From positions 3,160,054 through 3,224,053 of the forward strand of contig NW_004457695.1 in NCBI RefSeq assembly GCF_000203815.1: 64,000 bases of DNA, read 5' to 3'. The translations under genes and the position numbers were made by a program. How positions within the stretch are numbered: position 1 is the stretch's first letter; the number at the start of each line of letters is the position of its first letter. The notes below the pieces were generated by a model. The model did no database searches, was not told the DNA's origin, and saw only the letters and a program-made list of their open reading frames with translations. Positions 3,611-29,806 of the stretch are shown one piece after another. The DNA comes from Cavenderia fasciculata. Its lineage: Eukaryota > Evosea > Eumycetozoa > Acytosteliales > Cavenderiaceae.

Positions 3611-3750
3611 TAATAATAATAATAATAACAATCAATCATTTCACTATTATACTTTATTCATTCAATTAGAATTAATTCATTTTAATTCCTAACTGTTTGA
3701 TATATTATACCAAAACAATAAATAAAAAGTATATTTATTAATATTACAAG

Positions 3751-5193: not shown

Positions 5194-5224
<31 letters not shown>

Positions 5225-7905
5225 TAATAAAAATAAGTTAATATTTTTCCTTTTCTCTTAAAAAATAGTTTCTATTTCTATTCCAACATACAAACTAAAA
5301 TTAAGTAAAGAAAAAAAAAAGAATTAATATTATTATTTTAATTATTAATTTAAAAGAACGTAGCTTGTAACATACCAAATGTACTACGGAGAGTAGTGGC
5401 ATCATATTCATTGGCGACTAGTACGGTATAGGAAGGTGATAGTTGGATCGATTTTGGAATTGTACAAGTAATGGTGCTGGCGGTTATGTTTTTCACGGTA
5501 CAAGTAGCATTGTTACGATCGACAAGTGTCACATTGTGAGTCAAATAATTGTTAATGGTAAAAAGTTGAATGACAATCTCGTTGACATCACCACTGCTCT
5601 TGAGAACAACAGATGATCGTATAGCTAAAACACCAGCCTCTAAAACTGAAAATGTATAATTTTGTCCAACAAAAGTGATATTAAATGGCATTGGTGGCCC
5701 AACAACATTTCTGCCGATATCATAGACGATACGTTTGTTTGGAACACCCACACCACTAGCCTGAGGAATACCCCACCCCAAGAGTTCTCCCTCTACTGCA
5801 ATGTATCCATAGTATGCAATTAAAAACATACTTTTAAATGTTACATCTTGAATTGGAAAAAAAAAAAAAAAATAGTTAGGATTTATATTCTTTTTGGATA
5901 GTGATTAGTGATTTACTTACTACACACAAGGTTAGGTGGAATTGTTAATGATAGTTGTATTTTTGGATTTGTTACATTATAGTAGCAATAAAAACAGTCT
6001 GGTGCACTTGCAATGTTGGTACCCAACAAATTGAGGGATACAAACTGACACCATTCCTCTGGAATAGCTATTGTTAGACCTGGGTTATATGCAAGATTCA
6101 AGTTGAATCCAGGCATCACATTTTCAAAAAGATAATTGGATACAATGCTACCTGTCAATTGACTCGATGATATTTCTCTTTTTTTAAAAAAAAAAGGTTA
6201 AATGATTGATTCTGTTTTTTTTTTTTGGGTTATTGTTATTTACATACAGGATGGTCAGATTTGATGGAATTTGTAATGATGGCATTACTTCAAAACTGGC
6301 ATTTCGAATTAGAAGTTTACCCAGTGCCGGAGGAAAAGCTGTAAATGGGTATGTTGTCATTTGACCAACAGATGTCTCACTAGTAGTAATAATAAGTTAG
6401 TCTATCAATCCAAAGAGAGAGAGATAAATGATATATATAAAGTAATATATTACTTACATTGTAAATAGGTGTTGCAAATCTTTGAGATCTGAGTTACCAG
6501 AGAGCAGAATAGATCCTGTTAAAAAAAGTTGAATAAGATTACTATTATTACCAAATGTTAGGTTCAATCTCCCAACTTGAGAACGTCTTGCTATATCTCT
6601 ATACAATCAAGAAGGATTGTGGTTAGTAGTGTGGTTGGTTATACATATTTGATTTAAAATATGTCATACACATTGTACAAAGCTGTACTGTCTAACCCCA
6701 AATCGATATCAAAGTCTGAAAAAATATCTAGTTCTCTATAGAGAGAGAAAGAAAGAAAAGAAGAGTTAGTCATTTTAACTAAATATTGCATACTCTGAAA
6801 TCAATCCATGGATAGATTAATTAATATTAATATTACACTGAATATACCGATGGGAATGACTTTTCAACAATGTCAATTGATTGTGGTCCGATCGGGTCAA
6901 CCAAAAAACTAATGAACCTTAAACGAGGCAAATAGAGTGACGAGTCAATATGTACGTTGGCCAAGCTCATACTTTGGAATTGAAGGGAAATGGCATTCGA
7001 GTTATTGAAAAAGGATGGGATTGAAAGATTGGGAATATTTCTAAGCACACTATAGTTGGGGAAGGAAATAAATTTAATGTCAATAACAAAAAAGAAAAGA
7101 TCAACTTTTGATCCATTACAAAGACACGACATACATATCTGATAAACCAAACATATTTGTTGGGAAATCTGATGGTATTGGACTGATCGTCCCATCACCT
7201 GATATGCTATAGTGTGTAAAGGTGTAAAAAAAAGTAGATAAGTAATCAATCAATAGGGAATTAGGTACCATAATACTATTTAATAATATTTGTTCAACAA
7301 CTTACACTAAAGAAGCGAGGGTTTTCAAATTACGTATTTTTGACAATATGTTGATACTTGTATTCTTGGTGGCACCAATATCAACCATTGATAGAGAGCG
7401 TAACAAAGGTAAGTCAAGTTCAATCGATGCATTTGGAAATGTAGATGATCCTGTAAAAGTGTCTTTTAAATGTCTATATTTGATGATGATCATTGTTTGT
7501 GTTAATAACATTGTATGTATTGATGACTATCAGATCGATCAGATATCTGATCATATAATACACATACATTTGTTGCAAATGATCCAACCCAGTGACTGAA
7601 TCATGTTCACATACAACGTCAAGCTCACTACATATGCTTTGATCTTGTGGCAACTGACTCTGTCCATATTGTTGTATCAAAAATACTATTGATGCCACTA
7701 GTGTATATATGAATAGAGACAAACGAAATGAATTAGTGTTGTTATAGCCAAAAAAAGGGTACGGATAAAAATAAAATAAAAAAAAAATCTTGCTCTGAAG
7801 GAACATACATTCTGAATCTGGCAACAATGCATCTACATCTACACAACTATAAATAGCAATCAATAAAAAGATAAATAACTGTATTCTCTTCTTCATCTTG
7901 ATCAT
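3751..7905 (-). CDS. ComC-like type I membrane protein with LRR, TIG and EGF regions
   Basis: Multi-exon gene for a cell-surface protein. It starts at 7905 (or the in-frame ATG at 7896) with a signal peptide containing IQLFIFLLIAIYSCV. A first intron joins DSE to LASIVFLIQQYG in phase. About ten short exons down to ~5900 encode leucine-rich repeat-like segments. Exons at ~5830-5370 and ~5190-4728 look like IPT/TIG folds. The latter ends in an EGF-like module (CYGHGQCDINGQCQC). The last exon (about 4647-3751) resembles the ComC supersandwich domain, followed by one membrane helix (IIVGVVVGGVALIAIAVGS) and a ~28-residue cytosolic tail. Related dictyostelid proteins act in cell contact and allorecognition; a role here is inference. 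Exon edges in the LRR part are not resolved. Confidence 0.75.
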
Positions 7906-8639
7906 ATTCTACTTGTACAAAAATAATAAAAAATGAAGAAGAGAGGATAGTTTTCTTTTCTTTTTAAGATACCCAAAAAATGATGTAGATTCTTTTGGTT
8001 TAAAAAAAATATCTTTTTGAAGATATCAAACGTGATGATGTGTCGTCAAAAGAAAAAGATATTTTTGTTTGTTGTTTTAACCATTTTATTCAGGTCGAAT
8101 AAATAAAGAATAAAGAAAGGTGCTATCGTTCATAGATATCTATATATATATAAAAGACATATGTGAATACTTTTGTTTCCAAATCAAATCTTTGAAGATC
8201 ATTCAAGGTGGATTCTTGAATGTTTGTAGGTCTCGTAGTCTTGATTTTAAGTAGACACTTTACCTTTAGTAAAACCCAACCATTTCAGAAATGGGTTTGT
8301 TGTTGTTTATTCGGTTAAACACATACTAACTGTACATTCACTCATCTACTTGGGGTATTGATTTCTCAAAAAGAACAAGGAAAAAAGTTGAATGGTTTGT
8401 TGATTTCCGCAGCGATTCATCGAATTCAAGTGGGTGAAGCATTTTTGTGTGATGTCAGCGCTAAAACAAAAAAGCGATGGTGTCTGCATCGACCAACCCC
8501 CAATAGAGGTAGAGCTTAACTAGTTGGATATTAATAGTCAAAGTCCAAACTGTCCACTGTTCATTTATACAATTAACCAAACAAGATAAAGATAAAGATA
8601 AACCAACAAACGTAGATACAGATAATATATATATACATC
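7906..8639. promoter_or_regulatory. Divergent intergenic region
   Basis: 734 bp separate two divergent genes and should hold both promoters. Visible features are T- and A-tracts, a TATATATATA stretch at ~8145, and a perfect 8-bp inverted repeat CATTCAAG / CTTGAATG at 8200-8222 with a 7-base loop. No RNA gene was recognised. Confidence 0.5.
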
Positions 8640-10635
8640 ATGGATTCAGATACACTAGAAAAATACGAAAAATTAAAAGATTTATTTGATTCGGGGTTCA
8701 TCACTGAATACGAGTTCAACAATAGAAAGAAAGAGTTATTAGGTGATAATGAAATACCATCAAATTTAACTGGTAGTAATAATAATAATAGTAATAGTAA
8801 TAGTAATAATGACAACAATTCATCTTACAACTACTACAGTAGCAGTAATAATAATGATGACTACAACAACAATAGTAGCAACTATAACAGCAATGACTAC
8901 AATTCAATAAGTTATAATTATAATAGTACTAATAATGATGATAGTAATAGTTACAATAGCTATAATAACTACAACAGCAATAATAATGATGATAATAGTT
9001 ACAACAACAATAGTTACAATAGTTACAATAATGATTACAATTCAACACCAACAACCACTACGTCATCATATGACTACAATAGTTATAATAATAATGATGA
9101 TCAAGTAGTTGCCAATACCGACTATAATCACATTAGTAGTAGTAGTAACAATGATGATAATAATTACAATCAATATAATTATAGTTATAATCATAGTACT
9201 AGTGATGAACCAACAGTTGATTTTGTTACACATACAACCACTGTTACAACAACCACGACAACAACGGTTTCCTATGATGATGATGATAATAATTACAATT
9301 ATAACCAATATCAGTCATCATCATCAGCAGTTCCAACTGACCAAGATGATGTTGTTGTTCCACCTAAACCACCTATCACCACTCCTGCAGCATCCAAAGT
9401 TGTAAAAGATAAATTAACTGGTAAATCAGAATCAATTGCAAAGATTCAATATCCACACAAAGTTAAAGATAATTATATGACCTATGACAAGAATGTATGT
9501 ATCTTCAAAACACAATTATTGAAATGTATGTTTATTAATTTATTTTCCTTTTTATAGATTGATGGAGTTATTTTGTATTATAAATCAAGAGAATGTGCAT
9601 ATCAAACTGATATTATTCCATTGTCATCATTGACCAAGAAACCAATTAGTGATGTTATTCGTGAACAATTTGGATTAAACAATTATGATTTGAAAAAGAT
9701 TATTTTAAAACATAGAACTCCTGGAGACGAATACCAAACCATGACAGACCGAACCGAACAGACAACACAAGACGTCGATTACATTACAACCAATGGACAC
9801 TATCTAGTGGAACCAGCATCATTCACTCTACATCGTAATGCTGGCACCATGTTTGTCAAAGGTGAATACTTTAGTAAATACAACAACAGTTACACCATTC
9901 CACAAACTAGTTTCAAGATTGGGTCTCGTACCATTGCATTAGAGTATCCTGAAACTCCTTCTGGTGGTTGGAATGCTACTTATTTTAAAATTCAACCTGT
10001 AAGTTAAACGATAATTTAAACGTTAAATATTTAAATTAAAAAGAGAACTATATTAATATTTTGTTTATTTATTTATTAATTTTTAGCCAAGAAGAACATA
10101 TAATACATCAATTCCAGGGTACAAAGCAGATAAATTTCAATCGGCAGGTCCGGAACACAACCTTTTAAACTTTTACAATTTAATGAGAAACAAACAAATA
10201 TTCAAGAAGGGTCAAGAACACAGAGCTACACCACAAGAGTTGGGTTCCCAACCACACCATCTACACGTCAGTCGGTCGTTGGCTCAATGTATAGACAGCC
10301 AAAAATGTTTCGAGTGTGGACTGCCTTCATTAAACTCATTCTTTTGTTCAGTTCATTATGACAAGGATCTCATTGAAATGTATGAACAAGTAAAAGAATT
10401 GATACCAAAGATGACAGAAGCCGAACAACTAGAGATACAAGCTGCCAAGGAAGAAGAACAACTCGCCAAATCCCAAGATCCAACCAACATTAATAATAGG
10501 GAAAAGTTTACCTATGTTCCAGATGTTTCCATCCTAGAACAAGTCATTTTAAAGTCAAAATCACAATATTCTGATTTAGATTGTCTATACCCAAGTAATA
10601 TTAAAAAAGAGTTTAAAGTCAAAGTTGATTTTTAA
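8640..10635 (+). CDS. Asn/Ser-rich protein with SHOCT-like N-terminus
   Basis: Three exons (8640-9494, 9558-9998, 10087-10635) give 614 residues; phases match and both introns are GT-AG. Residues ~8-37 (YEKLKDLFDSGFITEYEFNN) look like a SHOCT helix pair, a short motif often involved in oligomerisation. A ~200-residue Asn/Tyr/Ser/Asp low-complexity region follows, then Thr and Pro runs. The second exon encodes an ordered domain (YKSRECAYQTDIIPL ... YFKIQP) of unknown fold. The third has a Cys/His cluster (CFECGLPSLNSFFCSVHYD) that could bind zinc, and ends in a charged helix. Function unknown. The start is the first ATG after an AT-rich leader. Its neighbour upstream is divergent. Confidence 0.8.
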
Positions 10636-11042
10636 AAAAAACAAATAATTTAAAAATATTAACAAATATTAAAAATAATAATATAATAAACCAACAATAT
10701 GTACAAATATATATATAATATAATAATATAACATATAAATTATCCAATTCTATAAGTATAGTATTTCCCACGTCTTTTTTTGATTGACGAAAATCCATGA
10801 AAAAAAATCGAAAAATTGAAGAGTATGAGTTCATTGATCATCAGAAGACACAACTTTACTTTCTAAATTAGTATTGCATATATCTACTACAACTGTAGTT
10901 ATACTATATACTATATACCTCTTCCTCTCTCTCTCTCTCTATATATATAATATATATTCTCTAGTTTAGATATATATAAGTTTAAAAAGAAAGGAGAAAG
11001 GAATATAATATAGACAACAAATACGTAGAGAGATAGATAGAA
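10636..11042 (+). promoter_or_regulatory. EFTUD2 upstream region
   Basis: 407 bp of very AT-rich DNA with TA repeats (about 10705-10740 and 10945-10985) and a CT microsatellite at ~10920-10943. It should hold the terminator of the upstream gene and the promoter and leader of EFTUD2. Nothing else was recognised. Confidence 0.4.
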
Positions 11043-14000
11043 ATGTCAGATCAACCAATCTTTGATGAATTTGGTAATCTTATAGAAGATGTAGAGGATA
11101 TAGAGAATATAGATGAACAGCAAGACTATGATGATGATGAGGAGGAGAGAGTAGCACGTGACGAACAACAGAATGGACATACTACTGCTGCTGATGGAGA
11201 TGGTGATGAACCAATGGTACAAGAGGAGGAAGAAGATAGTCATGTAGAATTCAAGACAAGACAACCTGGAAATGCGATCGTGTTGCACGAGGATAAACAA
11301 TACTATCCCGATGCATCAGAGGTGTATGGACAAGACGTCGAAGTGATGGTGCAAGACGAAGATACACAACCGATTAGCAAACCGGTGATCGACCCTGGAT
11401 CGAAACGGTCGTTCTTGGTGGCAGACAAGGAGCTGCCCGACACATCGTTTAGCAAAGAGTTTTTGGTTGATATGATGGCACATCCACAGTTGATGCGTAA
11501 CGTGTGTCTTGTCGGAAACTTGCATTCGGGCAAGTCAAAGTTTATGGATATGTTGGTCAACCAGACACACGAACGCAAGTGGACACACGCCAAGGCATCG
11601 CGATATACAGACACTAGAAACGACGAGCAAGAGCGTGGCATGTCGATCAAGTCGGCTCCCATGTCTCTGATTCTGCCCAATAGCAACGACAAGTCGTATT
11701 TGGTAAACGTGCTCGATACACCCGGCCACGTCAACTTTACCGACGAGGTGCTTGCGTCGCTGCGTCTGTGCGACGCTGCCATTGTGGTGGTTGACGCGCT
11801 AGAAGGTGTCATGATGCAGACTGAGCGTCTCATCAAATTGGCCGTGCAGGAGGGTCTTGCCATCGCGGTCGTCATCAACAAGGTCGATCGTCTCATCCTC
11901 GAGCTCAAGCTGCCACCCCAAGACGCTTACTTTAAGCTCAAGCACACCATAGACGAAATCAACTCGATCCTCGATCTCTGCTCGCACGGCCAGCCCACCA
12001 AGTTGCGCGTGTCGCCCGAGCTTGGCAACGTGCTCTTTGCCAGTGCCGAGATGGGCTGGTGCTTCTCGCTCTTCTCATTTGCCAAGATCTACCAACAGAC
12101 GTTTGGCGGCTTTGCCCCCGCCGAGTTTGCCAAGCGTCTCTGGGGCGACCTCTACTTTCACCCCGACGTCCGCGGATTCCGTCGAAAACCTAGTCCCCAA
12201 GTCACCGATTCACAACGATCATTTGTACAATATATCCTTAATCCCCTTTATAAAAATTTATTCAACCGTTTTAGCTGAAGATAAATCAAAAGTAGAAGTA
12301 TGTAAAACAACAAATCAAAAACAAAATAGATATATTCTAACTCTTTTTCTTTTCTTTTCTTTTCTTTTTGTAGAAAGTATTATTAGAATTGGGAATTAGA
12401 TTATCAAGAGAAACATTAAATTTGGATGTTAAACCATTATTAAGAATAGTATTGTCATCATTTTTTGGAAAGGCTACAGGGTTTGTTGATATGGTGGTCG
12501 ACTTGCCATCACCGTTGGACAATGCAGAGCAAAAGGCGTCGTTTGTATACACTGGTCCGTTGAATGGGACTTATGGAGAGGCGTTGAAAAAGTGTGATCC
12601 CAACGGCCCGTTGGTTGTATATGTGACAAAGCTGCTGACCAACGACGCAGGAACGGGATTCGACTGTTTGGGTCGTGTCCTCTCTGGCACTGTGCGTCGT
12701 TCGAGCGAGGTGCGTGTGTTGGGAGAGAGATACTCGATCGACACCAACGAGGAAGACCTCGTTCTAGAAGAACTCACCAAGGTGAGCATTGGCGAAGCAA
12801 GATATAAAATAGATGTCGATAGTATCCCTGCAGGCATGTGGTGTCTATTGGAAGGAATTGATAGTTCAATCATTAAAACTGCAACAATTGTAAATGAACG
12901 TGATCCAAAAATGACAAATTATACAAATGGAAATAGTAATGGTAATAGTAATGGAAACGGAGACTATCAGGATGATTATGGAAATGTTGCACATATTTGT
13001 AGACCACTTTCGTTTGCGACGAGTCCGTCAGTGTGCAAGGTGGCGATTGAGCCACTCAACCCATCAGAGTTGCCCAAGATGTTGGACGGTCTGCGCAAGA
13101 TCAACAAGTCGTATCCGCAGGTGGTTACGCGTGCCGAAGAGTCGGGCGAACACATCATATTGGGCACGGGCGAGCTCTACCTCGACTGCGTGCTGCACGA
13201 CCTGCGTGTCATGTACGCCGACATTGAGATCAAGGTGGACGACCCCGTCATCACGCTCAGCGAGACGGCCACCGAGACATCGAGCATCCCCTGCATGAGC
13301 GAGTCGCAGAACCATCGCAACCGTCTGACCATGGTGTGCGAGCCGCTCGAAAAGGGGCTGGCCGACGACATCGAGTCGGGCAAGGTCGACATTTCGTGGC
13401 CGCGCAAGCAGCGTACCGAGTTTTTCCAAAACAAATACGACTGGGACGTGCTGGCTGCCAACAATATCTGGGCGTTTGGTCCAGACGCCCACGGGCCCAA
13501 CATCCTCATCAACGACACGATTGGCGGCGACGTGAATCGCTCTCATCTGACTGCTATATCCGAGTCGGTCGTGCGTGGCTTCCAGTGGGCCACCAAAGAG
13601 GGTCCGCTCGTCGACGAACCAATCCGTAACGTCAAGTTCAAGCTTGTCGGCGCACACATTGCCCCTGAAGCCATCCACCGCACAAGCGGCCACATCGTGC
13701 CGGCTGCGCGTTCGTCCACACACGCCAGCTTGCTCGTTGCTGCCCCGCGTCTGATGGAGCCCGTCTACATGGTCGAAATCATCTCGCCACCCGACTGTGT
13801 CTCCTCGATCGAGACTGTCTTCCACCGTCGTCGTGGTAACATCATCCACGACTTTCCCAAGCCCGGCACCCCACTCCATGTCACCAAGGGTCTCTTGCCC
13901 GTGCTCGACAGCTACGGCTTTGAGACGGATCTCCGTAGTCATACCCAGGGTCTGGCATTCTGTCTCTCGGTCTTTGACCACTACCAAATCGTGCCCGGCG

Positions 14001-14179
14001 ATCCACTGGACAAGGATGTCCAGCTTTTACCACTCGAGCCAAGCCCCCAACAACACTTGGCACGTGAACTTTTAATCAAAACAAGAAGAAGAAAGGGTCT
14101 ATCTGAAGACGTAAATCTTTCAAAACATTTCAACGATGAACAATTATTAAATTTAATGTCTCACATGTCAACAAATTAA
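11043..14179 (+). CDS. eftud2: U5 snRNP GTPase EFTUD2/Snu114
   Basis: EF-G-like GTPase of the U5 snRNP, which drives spliceosome activation and disassembly in the nucleus. The acidic N-terminus (FDEFGNLIEDVEDIENIDE) is typical. G-domain motifs are G1 GNLHSGKS at residue ~158, G3 DTPGH at ~225 and G4 NKVDR at ~278. Domains II-V follow to the end. Exon 1 is 11043-12297, the intron 12298-12373, and exon 2 12374-14179. At 12252-12256 an A5 run puts the end of exon 1 out of frame. Reading one A fewer restores a family-like stretch (NPLYKIYSTVL) that joins exon 2 in phase as KVEKVLLELG and gives 1019 residues, close to the family's ~970. The break falls in a homopolymer in an essential gene, so a base-call error is more likely than a real lesion. 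Codons are markedly G/C-ending between ~11300 and 14060. Confidence 0.95.
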
Positions 14180-14453
14180 TAATACCTTTAATATAATATA
14201 ATATAATCTCTCTTTTAAATAAATTATTAAAAAAGTAAAACAAACATATCATCAAAAAAAATAATTTAATATTTATTTTATTATTAATGGGTTGGGTACT
14301 TGGCAACGTGGCATCAATTCTCTTCCCTTTCAAAAAATTCATCAGAAGAGGAGAGAGAATACACGTAGACATGTTGACACAACATACATTACTTATTTGT
14401 CATCAACGACTGATACAATATACATAATATTATATAACAACAATAACAACTCT

Positions 14454-16013
14454 ATGGAAGATTATAATCGTGGTGCATTAGAGTATGCGCTGCCATGGCC
14501 AATCATACAACGTATATTTATATTGGCATCACAATACAATAGTATATGTACATGTGTAATCAGTGATGCTTTGAAAGGGTGTATTTATACTAGATATCAA
14601 GCAATCTGGCAGAATAGAGATAAAAGTCAACAAAGTCAATATGAATTGCATACAGACATGTTGCTTCATAGAGATATGACACAACATGCTCTCACAAGAG
14701 ACCAAATGTGTACTCTTCATCAATTCAATCTCGATCATGGTGGACGTGGACCAAACTATGTGCTCCAATCAGATCATCAAGTAACAAGAGAAAGTTATAG
14801 ATGGGTACGTAGAATGGCACTGTTATCCAAACGTATATTTGCCTTTGTTTCAACAACACTTGTCACCGATGTTACGTTAGATCTGTCAGAGGATACTTGG
14901 AGACATATCAACAACTGTCATTGTGTCATTAAAAATCCAAAGACATTGACACTTGTATCTCCATCTCCATCTCCTACATCTCCTCCTCCTCCACCACCAG
15001 ACACCCAACCCTTCTCTTTAACATCGTCATCATCTTCCACCTCTCAACATGATGAACACCTTTTTGACAATGTTGAAAAGATTCATATCAACGAATCACA
15101 ATTTGTTAACAATGCTTCAACTATCAATACATTAATCAACAAAACACCTAAACTTGTATCGATCAGTTTTAATTGTGAAATTCCAAAGCCAACAGTGATA
15201 GATCTTTTCAAAGGACCACTGCAACACATTCGATCACTCAACTTTCAAAATGCTTATGTTGAAGATCCAGATAATCCTCGGTGGATATGCGGGGGTGGAC
15301 GTAGAGCAGAACCATTCACGATTGGAAGTATGATTCAACCATCAATGTCATCGACACTCACAAAGATTCTACTTCCAGACCACTTTAATTGGAACACACT
15401 CTCCAACGAGGTCAAACAACATCTACAAGTTATCTCTCTCTTGTATTATAATTCGAAAGATACCAATGTCCATTTAAAAGTGCTAGATTTTCCCAACCTT
15501 CGACACGTCCACATCAAAAACGATGCCTATGGTCGAGCATTAGGGTCACTTATTCCAGGACAAGTAAAGAAAGTAACATGCCTTGAAAATCAATCGATCG
15601 GTGGTCTATCAATACTTTCCAATATCAAAACAATAAGAGTTCACAATAGAGACGAAATATCCAACATAGTCGGTCTTTGCAAAACACCAGCCAACAAGAT
15701 TATAATATTCTCAAAAGTAGATATTTGTGAAAAGAATATTAAGGATTTCAATAATAGTGGATTTAATTATTTTGGAGCAACATTCAAAGCATCATCAAAC
15801 ACAAAGAAATTCGTATTTATTAAAAATGACAACAATCTACCTCTGTCAAATATTAAACAATTAGATCAACCATCAATTTCAACCATCCCTACATCCACTT
15901 CATCTCCTCCATCCTCTTCTTCATCCCCTTCTTCATCCTCATCTCCTTCATCCTCTTCTTCTTGTTCAAATCCAATTTTACCAACAATAATAATTCATAA
16001 AATAATTGAATGA
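14454..16013 (+). CDS. F-box-like / LRR-like protein, fused at its 3' end into copy 1
   Basis: Open frame of 519 codons from the ATG at 14454; the frame extends upstream to 14292 without another ATG. The N-terminus (LPWPIIQRIFILASQYNSIC) resembles an F-box, the Skp1-binding motif of ubiquitin ligases. The rest has scattered LRR-like hydrophobic spacing (LVSISFNCEIP, VLDFPNLRHVHI) and a Pro/Ser/Thr insert near residue 165. The last ~25 codons are not unique to this gene. From 15940 the sequence is the start of the duplicated unit found again at 21053, reached through an in-frame Ser run. The stop at 16013 therefore lies inside copy 1. The true 3' end may be before ~15930, or the two may have been one long protein. 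Confidence 0.6.
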   Translation: MEDYNRGALEYALPWPIIQRIFILASQYNSICTCVISDALKGCIYTRYQAIWQNRDKSQQSQYELHTDMLLHRDMTQHALTRDQMCTLHQFNLDHGGRGPNYVLQSDHQVTRESYRWVRRMALLSKRIFAFVSTTLVTDVTLDLSEDTWRHINNCHCVIKNPKTLTLVSPSPSPTSPPPPPPDTQPFSLTSSSSSTSQHDEHLFDNVEKIHINESQFVNNASTINTLINKTPKLVSISFNCEIPKPTVIDLFKGPLQHIRSLNFQNAYVEDPDNPRWICGGGRRAEPFTIGSMIQPSMSSTLTKILLPDHFNWNTLSNEVKQHLQVISLLYYNSKDTNVHLKVLDFPNLRHVHIKNDAYGRALGSLIPGQVKKVTCLENQSIGGLSILSNIKTIRVHNRDEISNIVGLCKTPANKIIIFSKVDICEKNIKDFNNSGFNYFGATFKASSNTKKFVFIKNDNNLPLSNIKQLDQPSISTIPTSTSSPPSSSSSPSSSSSPSSSSSCSNPILPTIIIHKIIE

Positions 16014-17239
16014 ACTTGAAACTTGAACAACCTTTGACATTGTGTTATGAAAAAAGATACATCCAGAAATGGTTAGACATTGGACGTGATATTCTTCAAG
16101 ATGAACAAGAAATCGAAAGATTCTACACAATGAAGAATAATTGTCCAACTCATTTCTCACACACTCGACCATATAAACCATTGGCTCATGACTTGAAAAG
16201 CTCGAACCAATCTAAATTACAACTGACACTGATCAACAAGGATATATTTAATTATATTTCTCAAAATTGTTTCACTGTCATCAAACTCGAATGTTATCAA
16301 TATGAAGGTACTGTTGAGAAACATGGTAACAATGCATACTGTGTTGCACTCAAACACTTTACAACAATAACAAGTGATTGTAGTCATGATAATGATATTC
16401 CCAAATCACTTCACAAGATTGACAAAGACAAACTTGAACAAATCACAAAAGTTGTATTTTATAATGGTGATTGTTTGCAAGATTTAATCAAACTATTACC
16501 CAATCTCACTTGTATTGACTTTTCTAAAAAAGAGATGGGTGGCTTCCGAGAATTAAGTCTAGAGAATCTGAGTAAACTCAAATCTCTCACCAAATTAGAT
16601 CTTTCTGGCGTTAGTTTACAACGTGATGGTTCTAAACATTTGGCAGAAATCAAAAACCTACCACTCAAAAAACTATGTCTCCCAAGTTGGGATCCATCAC
16701 TGTATAATGGGCTCCCAGCCAAATTAAAACGATCAATCACCAAGATAACTGCCGATCCCTATATGGATTTAAGTGTATTTCCAAATGTTAATCATATATT
16801 GATTACCGAAAGAGATACATCCCGGTGGAGATTACCACAAACCGTCACCAAAGTATCCTCAAAATATTTAGAAATTGGATTCCTCCCTCACAATCGACAA
16901 GTAACCAAATTCAAAACCTATTATATGTTTACCAATCAACAAAAAGTACATACATTCCTCAAGACACTCTCGGATCAGTGTCATCATGTTAAAACGGTGA
17001 TCAGATATGGCAATTGCCCATTAAACATTCCAAATGATCTATTTGATTCATTTAACTATCGAATAGATTATAGTTGGTCATCAATGGAAGGCAACTCTCA
17101 CCATTATGCATCTAGTCAATATTTACGACTTGAAAGAATCAATTATCAACCAATCATAATCGATAGTCATATAGATATTGAGCATCATGATAATGATATT
17201 GAATATCGTGATAATGAACAACAACAGCCCGACCATTAA
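15940..17239 (+). CDS. F-box-like protein, copy 1 of a local duplication
   Basis: Nearly identical to the unit at 21053-22282 over ~1.23 kb. The longest frame is 16010-17239 (409 codons). In copy 2 the F-box-like start (NPILPTIIIHKIIGMTWKL) and the body (KWLDIGRDILQDEQEIERFY) are in one frame. In copy 1 small length changes around 16008-16030 separate them, so copy 1 lacks an intact N-terminus. The middle is leucine-rich (LSKLKSLTKLDLSGVSLQRDG), as in LRR F-box proteins. The tail diverges from copy 2 after 17171 and ends in His/Asp-rich codons. Probably a broken or N-terminally truncated paralogue. Substrate unknown. Confidence 0.6.
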
Positions 17240-17784
17240 AGCTTCAAAAAAACTAAAAAAAAATCTTGTTGTTTATTACAATAATTAAATCATTTAATAA
17301 ATAAATAATATTTCCATAACCATTATCAAGTGCCACGCTGTATCAATATCAGCATCTGACATCACATAATAAACGAAAATGAAAAAAAAGGAAAATCACT
17401 CCTCTTTGAACTGTAGGTCAAATAACAAGATGGTCAACTCCTAGGAGCGGGATTGTTTGTTTGATCTCTTATATCAAACAAGGGTACAATGGGGGGGGGG
17501 GGGGGTACTCCCCTCTAAAATGAAGATAAATGATGAAATTTCAAAGTTGATATGGTCTGAAACTCGTGAGAATTTTGAAAACTCTGTCGACTTGTTCAAT
17601 AGAACGGACGAAATCTAAAATATCTTTAAAAATCACTGATAAACTACTTCATTGGGTGACCTTTGGTTTGAAAATAGAATACTATAAATTGAACATCAAC
17701 AACATGTTCATTTCAATCATTTGTTTCTAAAATCAATTACATCAAACCAAACAACAACAACAACAACAACAATTACCAAAAAAA
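17240..17784. other. Intergenic DNA with G15 run and inverted repeat
   Basis: 545 bp between copy 1 and the small secreted gene. It holds a perfect 9-bp inverted repeat (TTGTTTGAT / ATCAAACAA, 17457-17481) and a run of 15 G at 17491-17505, very unusual in DNA this AT-rich. The final ~150 bp should be the promoter and CAA-rich leader of the next gene. Confidence 0.6.
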
Positions 17785-18363
17785 ATGTTTAAATTATTAA
17801 TAGTTTTAATATTATCAATTACTACTCTTGGTATGAATCATGATCATAGAAAAAAATATCCAATTAAATATAATTTATTAATATCTCTTTTTATTTTTGT
17901 TTTTTTTTTTATAATTTTAGTAATTGGTCGATCATATTTAATTGATGGACCAACACCAGGACAATATTTATGGAGAACTTATTATGATTCTTGTAACTTT
18001 TATACCAATATTACATTGTCTATACAAGGAAATAAGTTTTTTACCTATAATACTGCCAATCCAAAGTTAAAGTATATTGTAAATGCTACCGTTAATAGTG
18101 ATGGTGTTACTTTCCAAGGTTTTGGAACAGTTTATAGTACATCACCACCATATGGTCCAATTTCTGTAACTACTGTAAAGGGAGAAGTAACTAATCCATT
18201 CACAATCACTGCCGTCTACGCCAGTAACGAATATCATAATCAAACTATTGAAATTTATAGTCTTTTTGGATGTCCATTAATTTTAGATACCATTAATGAT
18301 GATGATGATGATTATGAATCAAATGAACCAGTAGATAATGTTGGTCGTCCATTATTGTATTAA
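17785..18363 (+). CDS. Small secreted protein, 162 aa
   Basis: Exons 17785-17830 and 17921-18363 join in phase. The 90-bp intron (GTATGA to TTTTAG) is a multiple of three with no stop, so the unspliced frame is also open. Splicing gives a clean signal peptide, MFKLLIVLILSITTLVIG, and a mature protein of ~142 residues. The mature part has several N-glycosylation sequons (NIT, NAT, NQT), two Cys (CNFY, FGCPL) that may pair, and an Asp-rich stretch near the end. Family not recognised. Its promoter layout and MFK start resemble the small secreted gene at 46172. Confidence 0.75.
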   Translation: MFKLLIVLILSITTLGMNHDHRKKYPIKYNLLISLFIFVFFFIILVIGRSYLIDGPTPGQYLWRTYYDSCNFYTNITLSIQGNKFFTYNTANPKLKYIVNATVNSDGVTFQGFGTVYSTSPPYGPISVTTVKGEVTNPFTITAVYASNEYHNQTIEIYSLFGCPLILDTINDDDDDYESNEPVDNVGRPLLY

Positions 18364-18451
18364 ATGATAAATACAATATTATATTCAGAAAATTATAAAA
18401 TAAAGAAAAAAAATATATTATATAATATAATATAATAATATATAATAAACT

Positions 18452-18512
18452 ATTTACGTCTTAAAAGAATCAATTATCAACCAATCATAATCGATAGTCA
18501 TAAAGATATTGA
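18452..18512 (+). repeat. 61-bp remnant of the 3' end of the F-box-like unit
   Basis: Matches the 3' end of copy 1 (about 17119-17179) at all but a few positions, including the bases just past where copies 1 and 2 diverge. It has no body upstream. Together with copy 1 it flanks the small secreted gene as direct repeats, which suggests a segment duplication followed by deletion. Confidence 0.8.
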
Positions 18513-18619
18513 TTATTTAAGTAAATAATTGAATTCAATAAATATTTCCTGCCTTTCATTCTTAGTATCTCTTTAAAGAATAAAATACAATAGTTTATAA
18601 TTATTTATTTATTACTTAT

Positions 18620-20900
18620 TTATTGTAATAAAGAATTCTTTTTTAATTTCTTTGCTATTCTACAAGCTTCACAGGTTTTTCGTAAAGGAATCCCATTTGA
18701 TTCGAAAAAGGATTTCTCTGCTTCTGGTAAAGCAAAGTCATTACTACATACTTTACACTTGGTGATGTGAGGTGGCAATAAAGAAGAAGATTCAATTACA
18801 GGCTGGCTGTTGACCTTTTTTTTAGGGGATGCTCCTGTTTTCTTGGTATAGGGTTTTTTGGGAGGGACTGCAACAACTGGAGGTAGTGGAGTCGCTGTGG
18901 TAAAAACTGGTGGAGCTGGTGTGGCAGTAAGAATACCCTTCTTCTTGTTTTGGCGACATTCGACGCAGGTCTTTGTGAGGGGTATATTTTTATCATCATA
19001 GAATTTTTGGTCTTTTGGTGTCATGGTCCAATCTTTGCTACACATCTTACATGGACCCATGTGAACGCCGCCAGGTGCAAGAGGTTTGCCACCAGGTGTT
19101 TGTTGTTGTCGTTGTTGTTGTTGTACATGTTGTTTTGGAACACTTTGATTTTGAATTTGAAGTTGGAGTTGTAAGATTTGTTGTTCAAGTGCCAATACTG
19201 ATGGAGAACCCTTGTTGTTGTTTTGGTTTTATGAAACCATTATTTGTTGTTGCATTAAAAGTTGCACTTGTTGTTGGAGTAATAACATTAGTGCTTCATT
19301 ATTATTATTATTATTGTTAGAGGTGGTAGAGGCGGTAGAAGTTGTTGAAGTCTTCATATCATCATCACTTTCATCACTTGGATAATATTCATCATCTGAA
19401 TCAATCTGATGATGTTGGTTGACGGTTTGAAGTTGTATGGTTTGGGAATCCTTGGCAAGTGAATCAGAGATCATCTTGATGGTACTAATCATTTTATCGG
19501 CAGTGTCTCTGGCATCGTGAGAGGTCAACATTTTAGATTCCATTTCCATCTGTTGGAAGCTCGTCGACAATATTGAATCCTTGACAAATCTTTTTCAAAT
19601 CTTGGCATGCTTTCATCGGTCGATGTCTTGATGGCTACATCAACAAGCTTCTTGGAGTCGGCAATGTTTGTGATTTTGCTTTTAGACGAGGCTGCATCTT
19701 TGGTAGCCTTGTCATACTTGGCTTTCATACCAGCAATCTCTGTTTCAAGAGACTCGGTCACCTCTTGTACCTCCTTTTTTCCATGATAGTGTTCGGTATA
19801 ACTACACCCGCTAGGACATACATGGCAATTGTCGCCAAGCATGGCTGCACAACTCCTGAAAGCATTGTGGTCAATTCTTGGAGACCGCAGTGTCGATGGC
19901 AAACATGGTCACAACGAGAGCACATGGTGTTATGGTATGAGACATCGACCAATACTTTTCTTGTGGTAGCAGTCTTTTTCATATAGTTTTGGAACTTTGT
20001 TGCATCGTTTGAATGAGCTCCACGTTGCTTTTGTGCATTTGCAATATCTTCTTGCAACTGTTGAATTCTTTGGAACTTCATTTTTGCTTCATGAAACTGT
20101 TTGTTTAATTCTAAAAGTAAAGAAATGGTAGAGGTTAATAAATATAAATATATATTTACAATAAATTATTTTAGTTTTGTTTTCTTTTTATACATACTTG
20201 AATCTCATTGATTTCATATCAGCAAAAGCTTGGGTTGCTACACCAGCCTTTTTTTGAATGTTACCTAGTAACTTTTCAACAGTGTGCATCGATTGATTAA
20301 ACTCGGGCTTGAGAAACGTGGTTGCACCCTTTGTCCAGTTGGCAGGATCAGTAGAGAATGCAGAGTTCTCCATGTAAAAGATTGACTTGGTTTGAAGATT
20401 GCCAAGTGACTTTTGGTCAAAGTTGCGATTGTCTGCACGACACTTGGTGAATACAATGACGAGGTTCTGGAGGACAACGTCGGGAATGGAGCCTTGAAGA
20501 CGAGTGACGGCGTTTCGAAGAGTCAACACATTTCTGCTGTCTTTGCCACTGATGATGATGATGGCACACAAAGATGGAGGATTTGAAACGGCATCGAGGA
20601 TCTTTGTCATGTTGATTTCATCTTGCTGTCCACCTCTTGTATCGGATAGACCTGGTGAGTCGATAAACTCATAGTTTACACCTCCCTTTGAAAAGTAGTA
20701 CTTTGAACATTCATCGGTCTGACTCGATGTCCTTTGCGTCCTAATCCCTCAGTTGATTTAAGATACTTTGTTTCGATTGATACTTTGATCTTATCAGGGA
20801 ATGACCCATTCTTGAAATAGTTGGTCAATGTATTAATAAATGTTGATTTGCCTACATATATATATATAGATGAGATATAGATAAATATGTGTCAATAAAA
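18620..20900 (-). pseudogene. Broken dictyostelid GTPase / zinc-finger / coiled-coil gene
   Basis: Reads on the minus strand as pieces of one protein in changing frames. An AIG1-like G domain comes first: GKSTFINTL from ~20856, then FIDSPGLSD (G3) and FTKC (G4-like). A helical segment with a Cys/His cluster (MCSRCDHVCHRHC) follows, then a second Cys cluster and a coiled coil. The C-terminus (19195-18620) carries two zf-trcl-like zinc ribbons, each CxxC ... CxxCR. At least four frame changes separate the pieces, near 20735, 19850, 19570 and 19210. One intron (about 20198-20115) is plausible. Upstream of GKST the exon across 20892-21107 does not supply the first glycines of the P-loop in a compatible phase, and it runs into copy 2 of the F-box-like unit. 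The gene therefore seems to have lost its 5' end to that rearrangement. Some frame changes could be sequencing errors, but not all are in homopolymers. Confidence 0.6.
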
Positions 20901-20949
20901 ATAAAAAGTAAAAGGAAACACACGCGCATACTCGTCACGCGCACTATAG

Positions 20950-22335
20950 ATGTTCCAGCCCATGTTGACATTCTCGGGCTGTGTAAACTCGTTGCGATGC
21001 GTAAAGCAAAACAAACTCGTTGCGCCAAGACTTGGCTCCAACACATCCTCTTCATCTCCTTCATCCTCTTCTTCTTGTTCAAATCCAATTTTACCAACAA
21101 TAATCATTCATAAAATAATTGGAATGACATGGAAACTGAGACACCTTTGCACATGTGTTTATGAAAAAGATACAATCAAGAAATGGTTAGACATTGGACG
21201 TGATATTCTTCAAGATGAACAAGAAATCGAAAGATTCTACACAATGAAGAATAATTGTCCAACTCATTTCTCACACACTCGACTCTATCAACCACTGACA
21301 CATGACTTGAAAAGCTCGAACCAATCTAAATTACAACTGATACTGATCAACAAGGATATATTTAATTATATTTCTCAAAATTGTTTCACTGTCATCAAAC
21401 TCGAATGTTGTGAATGGGATGATACATTTGAGAAACATGGTAACAATGCATATTGTGTTGCACTCAAACACTTTACAACAATAACAAGTGATTGTCGTCG
21501 TCACAATATTCCCAAATCACTTCACAACATCGGCAAAGACAAACTTGAACAAATCACAAAAGTTGTATTTTATAATGGTGATTGCTTGCAAGATTTAATC
21601 AAACTGCTACCCAATCTCACTTGTATTGAATTTTCTAAAAAAAAGATGGGTGCCTTCCGAGAATTAAGTCTAGAGAATCTGAGTAAACTCAAATCTCTCA
21701 CCAAATTGGATCTTTCTGGTATTCGTTTACAACGTGATGTTGGTTTGGCAGAAATCAATAACCTACCACTCAAAAAACTATGTCTCCCAAGTTGGGGTTC
21801 ATCATCACTGTATAATGGGCTCTCAAACAAATTAAAACGATCAATCACCAAGATAGCTGCCACTCCCTATATGGATTTAAGTGTATTTCTAAATCTTAAA
21901 CATATATTGATTACTTCCGAAAGAGATACATCCCGGTGGAGATTACCACAAACCGTCACCAAAGTATCCTCAAAATATTTAGAAATTGGATTCCTCCCTC
22001 ACAATCGACAAGTAACCAAATTCAAAACCTATGATATGTTTACCGATAAACAAAAAGTACATACATTCCTTAAGACACTCTCGGATCAGTGTCATCATGT
22101 TAAAACGGTGATCAGATATGGCGATTGCCCAATAAACATTCCAAATGATCTATTTGATTCATTTAATTATCGAATAGATCATAGTTGGTCATCAATGAAA
22201 GGCAACTCTCACCATTATGCATCTAGTCAATATTTACGACTTGGAAGAATCAATTATCAACCAATCATAATCGATAGTCATAGTAGTGATCCTAAAGTTT
22301 CAAAACTAAAAAATATTAAAGAAATAATTAATTAA
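20950..22335 (+). CDS. F-box-like protein, copy 2 of a local duplication
   Basis: One open frame. The shared unit begins at 21053. The N-terminus that matches copy 1 is a Ser run, then the F-box-like NPILPTIIIHKIIGMTWKL. In-frame ATGs lie at 20950 and 21124. Codons between 20950 and ~21050 are antisense to the neighbouring GTPase-like gene and are probably not original, so the natural start is uncertain. The body is leucine-rich (LSKLKSLTKLDLSGIRLQRD) and ends after a unique tail, SSDPKVSKLKNIKEIIN. Likely role: substrate receptor of an SCF-type ubiquitin ligase, by inference only. Near-identity to copy 1 points to a very recent duplication or gene conversion. Confidence 0.65.
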   Translation: MFQPMLTFSGCVNSLRCVKQNKLVAPRLGSNTSSSSPSSSSSCSNPILPTIIIHKIIGMTWKLRHLCTCVYEKDTIKKWLDIGRDILQDEQEIERFYTMKNNCPTHFSHTRLYQPLTHDLKSSNQSKLQLILINKDIFNYISQNCFTVIKLECCEWDDTFEKHGNNAYCVALKHFTTITSDCRRHNIPKSLHNIGKDKLEQITKVVFYNGDCLQDLIKLLPNLTCIEFSKKKMGAFRELSLENLSKLKSLTKLDLSGIRLQRDVGLAEINNLPLKKLCLPSWGSSSLYNGLSNKLKRSITKIAATPYMDLSVFLNLKHILITSERDTSRWRLPQTVTKVSSKYLEIGFLPHNRQVTKFKTYDMFTDKQKVHTFLKTLSDQCHHVKTVIRYGDCPINIPNDLFDSFNYRIDHSWSSMKGNSHHYASSQYLRLGRINYQPIIIDSHSSDPKVSKLKNIKEIIN

Positions 22336-24359: not shown

Positions 24360-25682
24360 AAAAATCTAATTTAATTAACTTAATAAATTAATAACAACAA
24401 CAACAATCTATATATTTTTTACTAAATTTATATAATCCTCCCATTAAATAAAAAGATCATGTGAGATGATCGTCGTGAATGATACCAACAATGGGGTCGG
24501 GGATATAAACGAAACCATTATTATAAAATCGGTATGTTCATTGTAGTTGATGAAAACCATCTCTCTCTCTCTCGTGTTGATTAGATGGATGGTTGACAAT
24601 TCATGTAACTATTCAAACGAATTATCTTTAGTACCCACATTTTCAATAATAGGGGAAAGGTTGTCTGGTCGTTTGCAAAGAAGCAGCATCATCATCCCCT
24701 CCTATGAGTGTTCTCATTGGCAACATTTGATGGTGTCCAAAAGAGGCTCAAAGGTGAGCCACCTCCATCGATATTTTGGATGATGGGTTCCGAGAGTTTT
24801 GTCTTTGCTCGACCAACGTCGGAAATAATGACAAGATATTTTGGATTTTTCGAGGCACCTGGTAACAAACTCACAGCAAATGTATCTGTACGCTACAATC
24901 GATTTTTCTGGTCTGGAGAGTTTGGGACTATTTTCGAGTCGTTTACAGCCATCCTCTCTCACGAGCGGGATCTCCTATCAATCGCCAATAATGATTGTTT
25001 TTTTTTATTCCTCTTCTCCGCATATTTAGTATCAAACAATTAATTATTATTCGTAGCAGCAGCTGTTATTATTATTAATTGTAGGAGATAGATATTTTTT
25101 AAACAAACAGGCACAACAACAACAACGAAACAAATCGATTTTTCATTTTTGTTTTTTTTTTTCTTTTCCCAACAAGAACTCTGATCATAGAAAGTGAACG
25201 AGTACACGTCACCTCTCCCTGTGAAACAAACACCCTTTCCTTTGCATCATTCACAAACCGAAACTTCCCGTCAAAAATAAAAAATAGAAAACTAGAGCCA
25301 AACTTTCAAAGTTCCCAACAACACACAACACAACACAACAACAACAAAACAACAATCCCAAGATAATTATTTATCTTTTTTATCCTTCCCCCCCCCCTCA
25401 AATCACACAATCGCATTATTATTATCTAGCATCAAAAACAAGACAAGATTCATTTTTAGATACCAGTACCACATACACACACAATTCGAAACTTTAAACA
25501 ATCATTCATCCACAAACACACATACATTATTATCTTATTCTCATTGTGTTTTTTTAAAAAGCTATTCTATTCTTATTCTATTTAGATATCTATCGCTATA
25601 TCTAATCTATAATCATTATATATCAACCAATTTATGTTTAAAAGGAGAAGCACCAAGCTAAGCAGTATCAACATACCTCAAT
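24360..25682. other. Long intergenic region
   Basis: 1.3 kb without a supported gene. From ~24440 to 25030 the DNA is less AT-rich than its surroundings and open in several frames on both strands, up to 111 codons, but none resembles a protein and the frames conflict. From 25050 it is a CAA/ACA- and T-rich leader-like sequence before the next gene. Presumed promoter. Confidence 0.4.
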
Positions 25683-28600
25683 ATGTCTTTGTTTGACTTG
25701 TCAAATAACAATAGTGGGCATGGCGGCGACCTCGACGACCAATCGCTCACCTGTCTTCTTCAATCAAACGTATCAACGCCATCCTCTGCAGCAACACCCT
25801 CTCCTCCACAGTATATCATCAACTATCAACAACAACAACAACAACAACAAAATCAATCACCCTCTTCATCATCTTCTTATCAGGACAATAACAACAACAA
25901 CAGAGACTATGTAAATAATTTAAATCACAATGGTAATAGATATGTTGGAAATAATATCAGTGATCCCATATCGGCACTCCATGATATGCAACAGCAACAA
26001 CAACAACAACAATTCATGCAAGGCAACAACAACAACAACAACAACAATCCCAACACGGATTTTTTCAATTCCTCTTCCCCAACAACAACACATATCCCTT
26101 CCACACAATATGGTGGTGGTCATCACCAGTATGAGCATATCAACAACAACAACAACACTGGTTCATCATCATCATCATCTTACTCTAATAATAATGGCGG
26201 TGGCATGATGGCCAACATTAGCAGCAGCAGTGATGGAGGTAGTGTTGGTGTTGGCAATGGTAATGGTGGCAACGGTGGCGGTGGAGACTATAGCTCGCCA
26301 TTGAGCGAGTTTAGCGGCACATTGGGAGTATGTGGCAGTCCTCAGGACACTACCAACAACATGGTAGTGCCACACCTTCTCTCGGCATCAACCAACTCTA
26401 CCACATCATCGACTGGTACAACCGTGTCAAATGCCACCGACACTTCCAACTATGTTACCAACTCTTCTCCATTCCCATCAGTTTACAATAACACTAGTAA
26501 CAACAATACTGGTGGCAGCGGTACTATTATGGGTTCACCCATTCAAACTACTTCTACTTCTGTATTTCAGAGTTCAATTCCACAAACATCTCAACAACCA
26601 CAACAAAGAATTAATGATCAACAATCCCAATCACAACAACAATCATCACCACCACAACCACAACAACCACTACCACCACAACAACAACAATCAACACTAC
26701 CATTACTTGACCAACCAAATGTATTCCAACCAGCCCCACCACAACACACAGCGGGTAGAGTGTCATCGATTTTGGGATCATTTGCTAGTTATGGACCTTC
26801 GCCAGCACTGTTGAGTTCACAGTACCTTTTCCAATGCACACCTACCTATTATGCAGCCAAGAAGAATCAAAAGATTGGTATATTCCTCTACCACAAGAAC
26901 GACCTCAACTTTCTTCACACTCAACACCCCCAACTCCGTCTAAAGTTGACGTCTGTCGCACCCTATTGGACACCGTCATCATTTACTCGGAAGGACAACA
27001 AAAAGAACATTGAAAGTATTGCTCCAACACAATTTGAACAGATTGAAGCCGTCATGAAAAAGGGTGAAGTCTTGTTTGGACCGGTTCGTATCCAAAAGAC
27101 TGGTTACTACTTTTTAAAGTGTTATGTTGAATTACCTCCATTCCCATCGGAAGAGGAATTACCATTCAAAGATTTTTCATTCACATTCAAGATTTATTTT
27201 TATGGTAGTCCTTCTAAAAAGAAGAATGGTTCATCTTCATCATCATCAACATCATCAACTGAAAGAGGTGAATCATCAAATGGTAATGGTGATTCTGATA
27301 GTGATGATGAAGGAAGTTCCAACAACAATGATAACAACAATAATAACAATAACAATAATATTAGTTCAACTGGTTCAAAGGAAAGACCAACTTCAAGTAT
27401 GTAAATCATTTATCACAATATAAATAGTATTTATTAATCCAATTTTTGTTTTTGTTTTATTTAGTATCAAATATTCATATTAGACCAAATGAGAATTTAA
27501 TGAATTATATTTCACATCTTCAAGAGACTGGAGCAAGATGGAGAGATTTGGAGAATGTCTTTGATATCTATATCAAAAAGTATGAAAAGACACCAGAGAT
27601 TTTATCAGAGCTATTCTTTGAACAAGGTATTGCCGCAACCTTTGTTGGTAATCTTCATGAAGCTCAACTTCAAATGGATAGAGGTTTGGATACATTTTAT
27701 ACTCCTGAAAATTTGTAAGAGAGACAACAAAAAACAAAGACAAAAAAAAAAAAAGAAATAATAATATCATTAACCATTTCTTTTTCTTTTCTCTTCTTTT
27801 TTAGATTTAAAATTAGTTATTTAAAATCAGTTATATTTAGAATTCAAAAAAATTATACAGCATCTAAATTACATCTTGATACATGTGACTTTTTATACAA
27901 GAAAATAGATTTGGGTAATCTTCATCAAGCTCAATATTATTTTAACAAAGCTGCTCATGATTATGGTATGACAAATTAATTTAAATTAAACAATAATTAT
28001 TACATTTATTCCAAAGATATTAATATTAATATATTTCTGTTTATGTTTAGATTGTTTTGTTGCACAAAAAACCAAACAAAATAATTATATTATGGTTCGT
28101 GATCAAATCATTGAGAAATTCAAACAAGCAGCCGATTTCTATAAAAAGGATTATGAAAGTTCAGATCCAAACTCTACTACCAATGCTAGAAGTATCAATG
28201 GAACATACCGTGCCAATATTCGTATCACTCAAACTATTCTAGGTTCTTCCAATCTAACAGAGGCTGATTTAACCAGAGCTGAATCTTATCTTACAATGTA
28301 TGTAATATTTTAAAATATATATATATATATTATTATTATTTTTAGAATATATATATTAATTAATAATATTTTAATTTTAGTATTCCAAATATTCAATCAT
28401 ATACATTTACTCAACGTACACAAGTTCATTTATTGTTTACATGGGCTGATTTGATGTTGTCAAAGTCGTATCAATTATTTAGATCCAATCACCAACAATC
28501 ATTCCACATGTTGGCTCAATCACTAGAGTATATCAACAAGTCGGCCAACTATGCAAGCAAGTTGGGATTCAACAATGAGATTAGATACACCAACGATCGT

Positions 28601-29806
28601 TACCAAAAACTCTTTTCAGTTGCTCCAAAATCATTTATCAATGCTCTCACTGGTGCTAATCTCCTTGGCAATCAATCAATGATTACTTCTTCTAATCCTT
28701 CTGTACCAGCATCTGGAGCCCAATTACCTTCTACCTCTATCACCTCCACCACCTCTACTACTACCACAACAAATCAATCTCAGGCATCATCCAATCAAAA
28801 TAATTTAATCACAACAAATAACAGTCAAAATAATCAAAACAACAATAATAATAATATTCAAATGACAAGAGGAAATATAGAATTTAATCAACACCAACAA
28901 CAACAACAACAACAACAACAACAGCTACAGCTACAACAACAACATCAACAAGTATATACTAACAATAATAATAATAATAATAATATAAATATGAATATAA
29001 ATAATAATAATAACAACAACATGCTAAATAATAACAAGATCATCATGACTAACAATACTAATAATAATAATGGTAATAGTGGAAATAATGGAAATATTAT
29101 TGTGAATAACAACAGTGCCACCAATAATAATAATAATAATAATAATAATGACAACGGAAATATTGCTATACAGAACTCTTTAGTTGGATTGCTTACAGGT
29201 GCCATCCCATTCAACCAAACACTTTTGAATAATTTAATATTATTGCATAGTTTAAGTCAAACTTTAAATAATAGTGGTGGTGGTGGTGGCGGTGTTGGAG
29301 CTGGTACACAGCAACAAGCTGGAGGTGCTTTAAATCTATTATTAGGAGGATTATTAAATACACCACTATTGAATAATCCCCTTTTAAATAATTTAATGCA
29401 ACTTTCAAACAATAATAATCAAGATAGTAATATCAATCTCTCAAATATCAATCTTTTGACTGCCAACAACAACAACAACAATCACCCATCCTCCACCACC
29501 ACTTCATCCATTCTAAACTCATCACATTCACCAAGTTTTCATTTGACTGAAAATCAACAACACCAACAACAACATCAACAACACCAACAACAACAAGTAC
29601 TTGTAAATAATAACAACACCAACAATAATCTTTTATTTTTAAATGGATTACAACAACAACAACAACAGCAACAGCAACAACAACAACAAACAATGATGAA
29701 TATTCAATCCTACGCCAATCAAGCCAATCTTGACATCTTACAAGATTACCTTTGTTCTCAGTCACCTACACAATCCATCACCAAAAATGAAAATAACTAT
29801 AAATAA
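25683..29806 (+). CDS. Gln/Asn-rich protein with helical-repeat core
   Basis: Five exons (25683-27396, 27465-27714, 27805-27965, 28051-28297, 28381-29806) sum to 1265 residues with all phases matching. Residues 1-370 are low complexity (Gln, Asn, Ser, Gly runs). An ordered block follows at ~370-500 (SSQYLFQCTPTYYAAKKNQK ... FKIYFYGSP), predicted beta-rich. Exons 2-5 encode an alpha-helical, TPR-like region (ELFFEQGIAATFVGNLHEAQ; LGNLHQAQYYFNKAAHDY; TWADLMLSKSYQLFRSNHQ). The last ~400 residues return to Asn/Gln runs, including CAA and AAT microsatellites. A scaffold or transcription-linked role would fit, but no family was recognised. Confidence 0.85.

Follow-up and report, generated by a model that had tools for sequence, protein, structure and literature searches.

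Within a 64,000-nucleotide window of the Cavenderia fasciculata genome (bases 3160054-3224053 of contig C14, NW_004457695.1, 3.47 Mb), the C-terminal half (C-half) of a leucine-rich repeat (LRR)-like gene is present in two copies. The first (copy 1) follows an N-terminal half (N-half) and a low-complexity linker, as in other members of a multi-copy family. The second (copy 2) lacks the N-half and begins at a 125-bp patch matching exactly a part of a myotubularin gene on another contig. Beyond the patch, head to head with copy 2, lies a GTPase-like gene whose first exon was not found in the window. We consider it reasonably likely that a duplication was followed by a break with deletion and that the gap was closed with a copied patch. 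Resident copy 1 would have been duplicated locally, and a later break or break pair between the second copy and the GTPase-like gene would have removed the N-half of copy 2 and the GTPase first exon. The ends would then have been rejoined through the 125 bp copied from the myotubularin gene, in the manner of class 2 templated sequence insertions. We infer that the deletion and the patch belong to one event, later than the duplication and mediated by end joining.

The two copies and their gene family

DNA searches covered the whole genome (31.0 Mb, 21 contigs, numbered here with the prefix C). Pairwise alignment placed the two direct copies at 15933-17174 and 21046-22286 on the plus strand, and a patchy likeness to the 3' flank of copy 1 runs on from copy 2 to about 22313. 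The first-pass annotation had described two near-identical 1.23-kb copies of recent origin and a tail remnant near 18452. The duplication is real, at a lower identity: the alignment of 1254 columns contains 1166 identities, 63 mismatches, and 25 gaps (94.9% of the ungapped columns), and the genome search gave 93%, with the next matches, the short remnant aside, at 70-75%. The remnant was confirmed as 62 bp of the C-half tail (18451-18512, plus strand), matched at 95% by copy 1 along the 62 bp and at 94% by copy 2 along 52 bp; it may represent a third lineage, the stretch being too short for certainty. In the C-half tree (the family trees are unrooted) the two copies group together as sisters (support 1.0). 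Across 357 codons outside a cluster of differences at 16004-16088, the synonymous divergence (Ks) between them is 0.074, the lowest among the pairs computed, and the duplication can be called recent in this relative sense only. The nonsynonymous divergence (Ka) is 0.055, giving a Ka/Ks of 0.74 with a bootstrap range of 0.41-1.40, and Ka exceeds Ks in 14.8% of 500 bootstraps. With such a range, positive selection is not claimed, and a possible relaxation of constraint is the furthest conclusion that we draw from the ratio.

The same family loci were found irrespective of whether the repeat unit, the copy-2 protein, or the region 14440-15990 was submitted as the query. The close paralogs comprise ten loci, of which a tandem array on C21 (884-904 kb) holds six; C5, C11, C14 (1.516 Mb), and C4 contribute one apiece. 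In all ten, the C-half follows the N-half on the same strand, with the junction in an open frame; seven hold nearly all of both halves in a single frame, and the other three (C21c, C21f, and the C4 locus) are broken elsewhere. A weaker set of 15 loci (L022-L035 and L037; L036 was left out, being the myotubularin donor) was taken from the 50-match list of the copy-2 protein search, in which only matches with an excised locus were looked at. Thirteen of these 15 carry an N-half upstream of the C-half on the same strand (E 1e-4). The linker, shown for two paralogs, is Ser-rich in the C5 member and contains Asn and Ser in C21f.

The two halves of copy 1 are also about equally diverged from their relatives. 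In comparisons with nine paralogs (C4 excluded), the C-half gave Ks of 1.12-1.40 and Ka of 0.35-0.44, and the N-half gave Ks of 0.99-1.26 and Ka of 0.39-0.54, apart from C21f (66 codons, Ks 0.42). A search for the N-half near copy 2 found nothing beyond the shared linker. Because the paralogs share the two-half order and the halves diverge alike, copy 1 (14454-17239) is by this comparison a native family member, and copy 2 is the exception, a truncated duplicate consisting of the C-half only. The proposal that copy 1 is a new chimera is rejected in view of the ten close loci with the same arrangement. The first-pass annotation had also regarded the 5' edge of copy 1 as a breakpoint at which it was fused to a different F-box-like gene. 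The shared order of the halves and their equal divergence contradict the fusion, and no breakpoint is demonstrated there: homology ends at this edge because copy 2 is without the N-half. The TCC/TTC-rich, Ser-coding linker between the halves occupies 15891-15974 (plus strand), and the homology of copy 2 starts at the matching place.

As assembled, the N-half of copy 1 (14454-16010, plus strand; an open frame of 519 codons that runs through the Ser-rich linker to the beginning of the C-half and matches the N-half of the ten close loci) is out of frame with its LRR-like C-half (16010-17239, plus strand; open for 409 codons). The break falls in the cluster of copy differences at 16004-16088. Homopolymer compression lowered the number of differences from 14 to 4 in this 85-bp cluster and from 71 to 61 in the rest of the alignment; the cluster therefore consists mostly of single-base run-length changes. 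Elsewhere in the alignment, 22 overlapping 85-column tiles hold at least 7 differences, and none of them came under a ratio of 0.75. Of 95 sites identical in all nine paralogs, 77 are conserved in copy 1 and 81 in copy 2; nine of the 18 departures of copy 1 lie inside the cluster, as do three of the 14 departures of copy 2. The frame break of copy 1 looks like a base-calling or sequencing error. Copy 1 was not accepted as a simple pseudogene, the break being confined to the run-length cluster.

The myotubularin patch and the GTPase-like gene

A search using 18580-21075 as the query found, besides a GTPase-like paralog on C10, a 98% match over 132 bp on C16. Its core is exact: all 125 bases of 20922-21046 (minus strand) coincide with C16:327186-327310 on the opposite strand. 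The donor is an open frame of 853 residues with a match to the Pfam myotubularin-related family (Myotub-related, PF06602; 5.3e-141, residues 258-604). A query with the entire donor gene produced 22 matches, namely itself, the patch at 98%, three matches at 66-71%, which are probably members of the myotubularin family, and 17 short ones at 81-93%; thus, an identity of at least 95% was found for the donor itself and the patch only. The GC content is 50% in the patch, 19% in the flank on the GTPase side, and 34% in copy 2. The donor and the window diverge after CCAACACAT, and several CATC words occur in the copy-1 linker; a microhomology of 3-4 bases on the linker side of the patch is possible. 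Inspection of the flanking sequence revealed no A-tract after the sense-strand 3' end of the patch. The earlier view of recombination mediated by a TCC/TTC microsatellite is at best partly right: the edge of copy 2 lies in the Ser-coding linker, but its partner is the myotubularin patch and not a second microsatellite.

Adjacent to the patch are 67 bp with a GC content of 19% (20855-20921, minus strand), which the splice reading and base composition suggest are probably the rest of the first intron of the GTPase-like gene. The remnant of this gene (18620-20854, minus strand) is homologous to the C10 paralog from 20854 down to 19488 (69%). From the splice signals, read by eye, exon 1 of the paralog (C10:209 kb) appears to encode MSSAVTKAEITQIFIVLGLTGVG, ending in GLTGVG and joining KSTFIN. 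The window copy starts at this splice point, and its exon 2, from 20854, reads GKSTFIN. A tblastn search of the whole window with the 23-residue exon-1 peptide of the paralog, a weak query, returned two matches, with E values of 2 and 3. The window copy has no complete P-loop (GxxxxGK[ST]), GKS alone being kept in exon 2. The gene shows frame breaks as assembled; given the suspected run-length errors in copy 1, we do not insist that all of them are real. The possibility that copy 2 was inserted into the first GTPase intron, with exon 1 lying beyond copy 2, was not adopted after those two matches, and it keeps some standing given the weakness of the query.

In the Pfam search, a Tbcl-type zinc-binding region was found at 18620-19228 (2.5e-10), together with weak RING/FYVE matches below the cut-off, and may be the 3' end of the GTPase-like gene. 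The gene resembles AIG1-type GTPases in a weak Pfam AIG1 match of the window fragment (E 0.011; 15.6 bits against a cut-off of 27) and in the sequence GLTGVGKS read across the presumed splice of the C10 paralog. It differs from them in this sub-cut-off score, in the missing first part of the P-loop in the window copy, and in the adjoining Tbcl-type and weak RING/FYVE regions. These results bear on three statements of the first-pass annotation. Copy 2 had been said to abut a minus-strand GTPase-like gene; the gene does adjoin, with the 125-bp patch and the 67 bp intervening. The P-loop exon had been called lost; exon 1 was indeed not found in the window, but exon 2 with GKS remains. As for the claim that the duplicate had cut into another gene, a truncated duplicate does stand beside a damaged GTPase-like gene, and it is the part concerning a fusion at copy 1 that failed.

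The patch also provides the beginning of an open frame. The first ATG of the copy-2 frame (20950-22335, plus strand, 461 codons) lies at 20950 inside antisense myotubularin DNA, and about 32 antisense codons are followed by the Ser linker and the C-half. The C-half of copy 2 is open for more than 380 codons, and the length differences past the 16004-16088 cluster sum such that both copies stay in frame. An improbable reading, with which these open frames would agree, is that the patch made a new working gene by supplying a start codon and about 32 antisense residues as a de novo N-terminus for the headless LRR half-gene.

Weighing the possible histories

Had the patch arisen together with the duplication, the Ks of 0.074 would predict about 4.6 changes in it, and none is seen (P ~0.01, Poisson, assuming the synonymous rate for the patch and using a single short tract). 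The patch is probably younger than the duplication by this estimate, and a sequence of duplication first and patch and deletion later is therefore favored. Several points weigh against this history. Two of the weaker family loci, L031 (C20:366 kb) and L037 (C3:234 kb), show a C-half match with no same-strand N-half at E 1e-4, and members consisting of the C-half only may have arisen by other routes. These two loci, which are also without a recognizable N-half, slightly lower our confidence. A former N-half of copy 2 is conjectural, as are the extent of the deletion and any microhomology at the GTPase junction. The dating carries the assumptions just given. An exact patch match is equally expected from a cloning or assembly chimera, and the 16004-16088 cluster hints at uneven sequence quality nearby.

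The absence of N-half DNA exactly where the patch adjoins copy 2 could be explained at one stroke by a single replicative event, such as template switching resembling microhomology-mediated break-induced replication, in which the C-half was copied, the 125 bp were acquired by a jump to the myotubularin gene, and the product was joined to the GTPase gene. The lack of patch substitutions against the divergence of the copies is difficult to reconcile with this, and the 62-bp remnant suggests that several copies may already have existed at the locus; we regard such an event as unlikely, with some weight left to it. A smaller weight is given to the view that the junction with the patch arose as a chimera in cloning or assembly and that the true chromosome is patch-free, which we consider distinctly improbable. 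The exact identity of the patch and the low-quality appearance of the run-length cluster would agree with it; it requires, however, two false joins 125 bp apart within a 3.47-Mb contig, and the copies, about 5% apart and with unlike flanks, are not a single read set that was used twice.

Two further accounts concern the origin of the copies themselves. Copy 2 might be a processed retrocopy that derives from a truncated transcript; retrocopies are typically truncated at the 5' end and lack neighboring sequence. Against this, no A-tract at the 3' end of copy 2 and no flanking target repeat were noticed by eye, the family's open frames contain no intron that could have been lost here, and a 5' patch from a different gene would remain unexplained; a retrocopy is thus very improbable. 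Still less credence, close to none, is given to the earlier view that an independent F-box gene moved and was fused in frame at copy 1. The joining of the halves through a Ser run, the presence of one half only in copy 2, and the two of 15 weaker loci without a same-strand N-half accord with it. The arrangement shared by ten of ten close loci (with an open junction) and 13 of 15 weaker loci, and the comparable divergence (Ka and Ks) of the two halves of copy 1 from the nine paralogs, speak against it. It survives only if all 23 two-half loci descend from a fusion at this place, of which the unrooted trees, with no formal test applied, give no sign.

Duplication followed by break repair with a copied patch, the reading that we prefer, can be compared with a process known from human DNA. 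The report on human templated sequence insertion polymorphisms (TSIPs) describes class 2 insertions as short patches from a distant, intact locus with no A-tract after a cryptic polyadenylation signal, no target-site duplication, and end-joining marks such as microhomology or a small deletion (PMC5110952). The present patch resembles these insertions in that it agrees with a distant locus in 125 of 125 bases, leaves the donor intact (an 853-residue open frame), and has no A-tract (PMC5110952). On the linker side, a microhomology of 3-4 bases would be possible, and the two flanks of the patch come from different genes. The present case differs from the human insertions in the loss of two gene ends and in its occurrence in an amoeba genome; since a single frame covers the donor stretch, an RNA template and a DNA template cannot be told apart. 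The event looks like a natural, nearly fresh example of a known mechanism. A literature search in one collection, by title and the start of the abstract, found no report of such patches in Dictyostelium.

The family protein, the surrounding sequence, and implications

The C-half is LRR-like. Among 11 C-half members, Pfam detected LRR_8 in one (1.4e-5), LRR_4 in four (best 4.7e-5), and LRR_Zer-1 in five (best 0.0026); the window copies by themselves remain below the Pfam cut-off for LRRs. A kinase-domain match in one of the 11 (1.1e-4) is unrelated to the LRR signal. A PDB profile search with the C-half gave matches at 4.5e-6 and 3.3e-4 to chains that contain LRRs, and an AlphaFold2 model built from two sequences (mean pLDDT, the predicted local confidence score, 41.3) shows a repeating strand-helix pattern at about residues 148-362. 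The same search with the N-half gave one match, with an E value of 0.3. The gene had been called F-box-like in the first pass, and no Pfam F-box was found in 11 C-half or eight N-half members at E<=1, in scans whose HMMER filters discard most matches above about 0.1. The label is unproved; a divergent F-box could have escaped detection, as the model has a pLDDT below 30 in the candidate region.

Seven of the ten close paralogs end in C-x-x-M/L (CNIL, CPLM, CKIM, CIIM, CNTM, CTIL, and CNIM), and C21f ends in a hydrophobic tail. These ends may be prenylation or membrane anchors. Neither a C-x-x-M/L end nor a hydrophobic C-terminal tail was found in C14b, in C4, or in the two window copies, suggesting that C-terminal membrane attachment may be a family trait that is absent in both window copies. 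The F-box/LRR proteins of the FBXL2/FBXL20 type are LRR proteins with a possible C-terminal prenylation motif. The present family resembles them in its LRR-like C-half and in the C-x-x-M/L end of the seven close paralogs, and differs in having no Pfam F-box and in the window copies being without C-x-x-M/L.

Other observations were made in the paralogs. Two neighboring C21 genes (L062:1029-6641) have near-identical N-halves (branches of 0.04 and 0.02) and diverged C-halves (0.19 and 0.36), a pattern that suggests gene conversion of one half. A 72-residue C-half tail remnant, situated between two C21 cluster genes (L063:4034-4234), parallels the remnant at 18451 in the window. Several paralogs carry an N-terminal extension (L062:621-1028 and L065:626-874) of the NELAYECSQLDVPL and SELIEICFQLGVP types, which resembles a SAP motif and was not seen in the upstream frame of copy 1.

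Similar patches were sought in the rest of the window by searches that skip simple repeats and score the best candidates only. The stretch 1-14440 yielded none (54 matches, 79% identity at best), nor did the matches listed of 160 in 24500-44000 (best listed 93%, in multi-copy repeats). Among 66 matches in 44001-64000, those of near identity fall within a multi-copy element starting at about 55003, with one exception at 54495-54539. This exception is a 45-bp stretch with 96% identity to C1:1542523-1542567; it lies just outside the element and beside a C1 copy of the same element. The element itself (55003-64000) shares stretches of several kilobases at 98-100% identity with many contigs and is probably a young mobile element. 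Another multi-copy repeat (about 30200-36300, roughly 66-93% identity) occurs on many contigs, often clustered. The gene-like region at 3808-5242 has 54 matches at 66-79%, several per locus and many clustered on C17, C1, and C14. A run of 15 G (17491-17505) stands within an AT-rich stretch.

In this family, what looked like a fusion is ancestral, and what looked like the donor unit is a truncated product. The locus also illustrates how a single scar can cut away the front of one gene, take the first exon from another, and leave a chimeric frame open; if that frame were a working gene, a break-repair scar would serve as a de novo N-terminus. Should such patches prove frequent across the genome, break repair could be dated by them.

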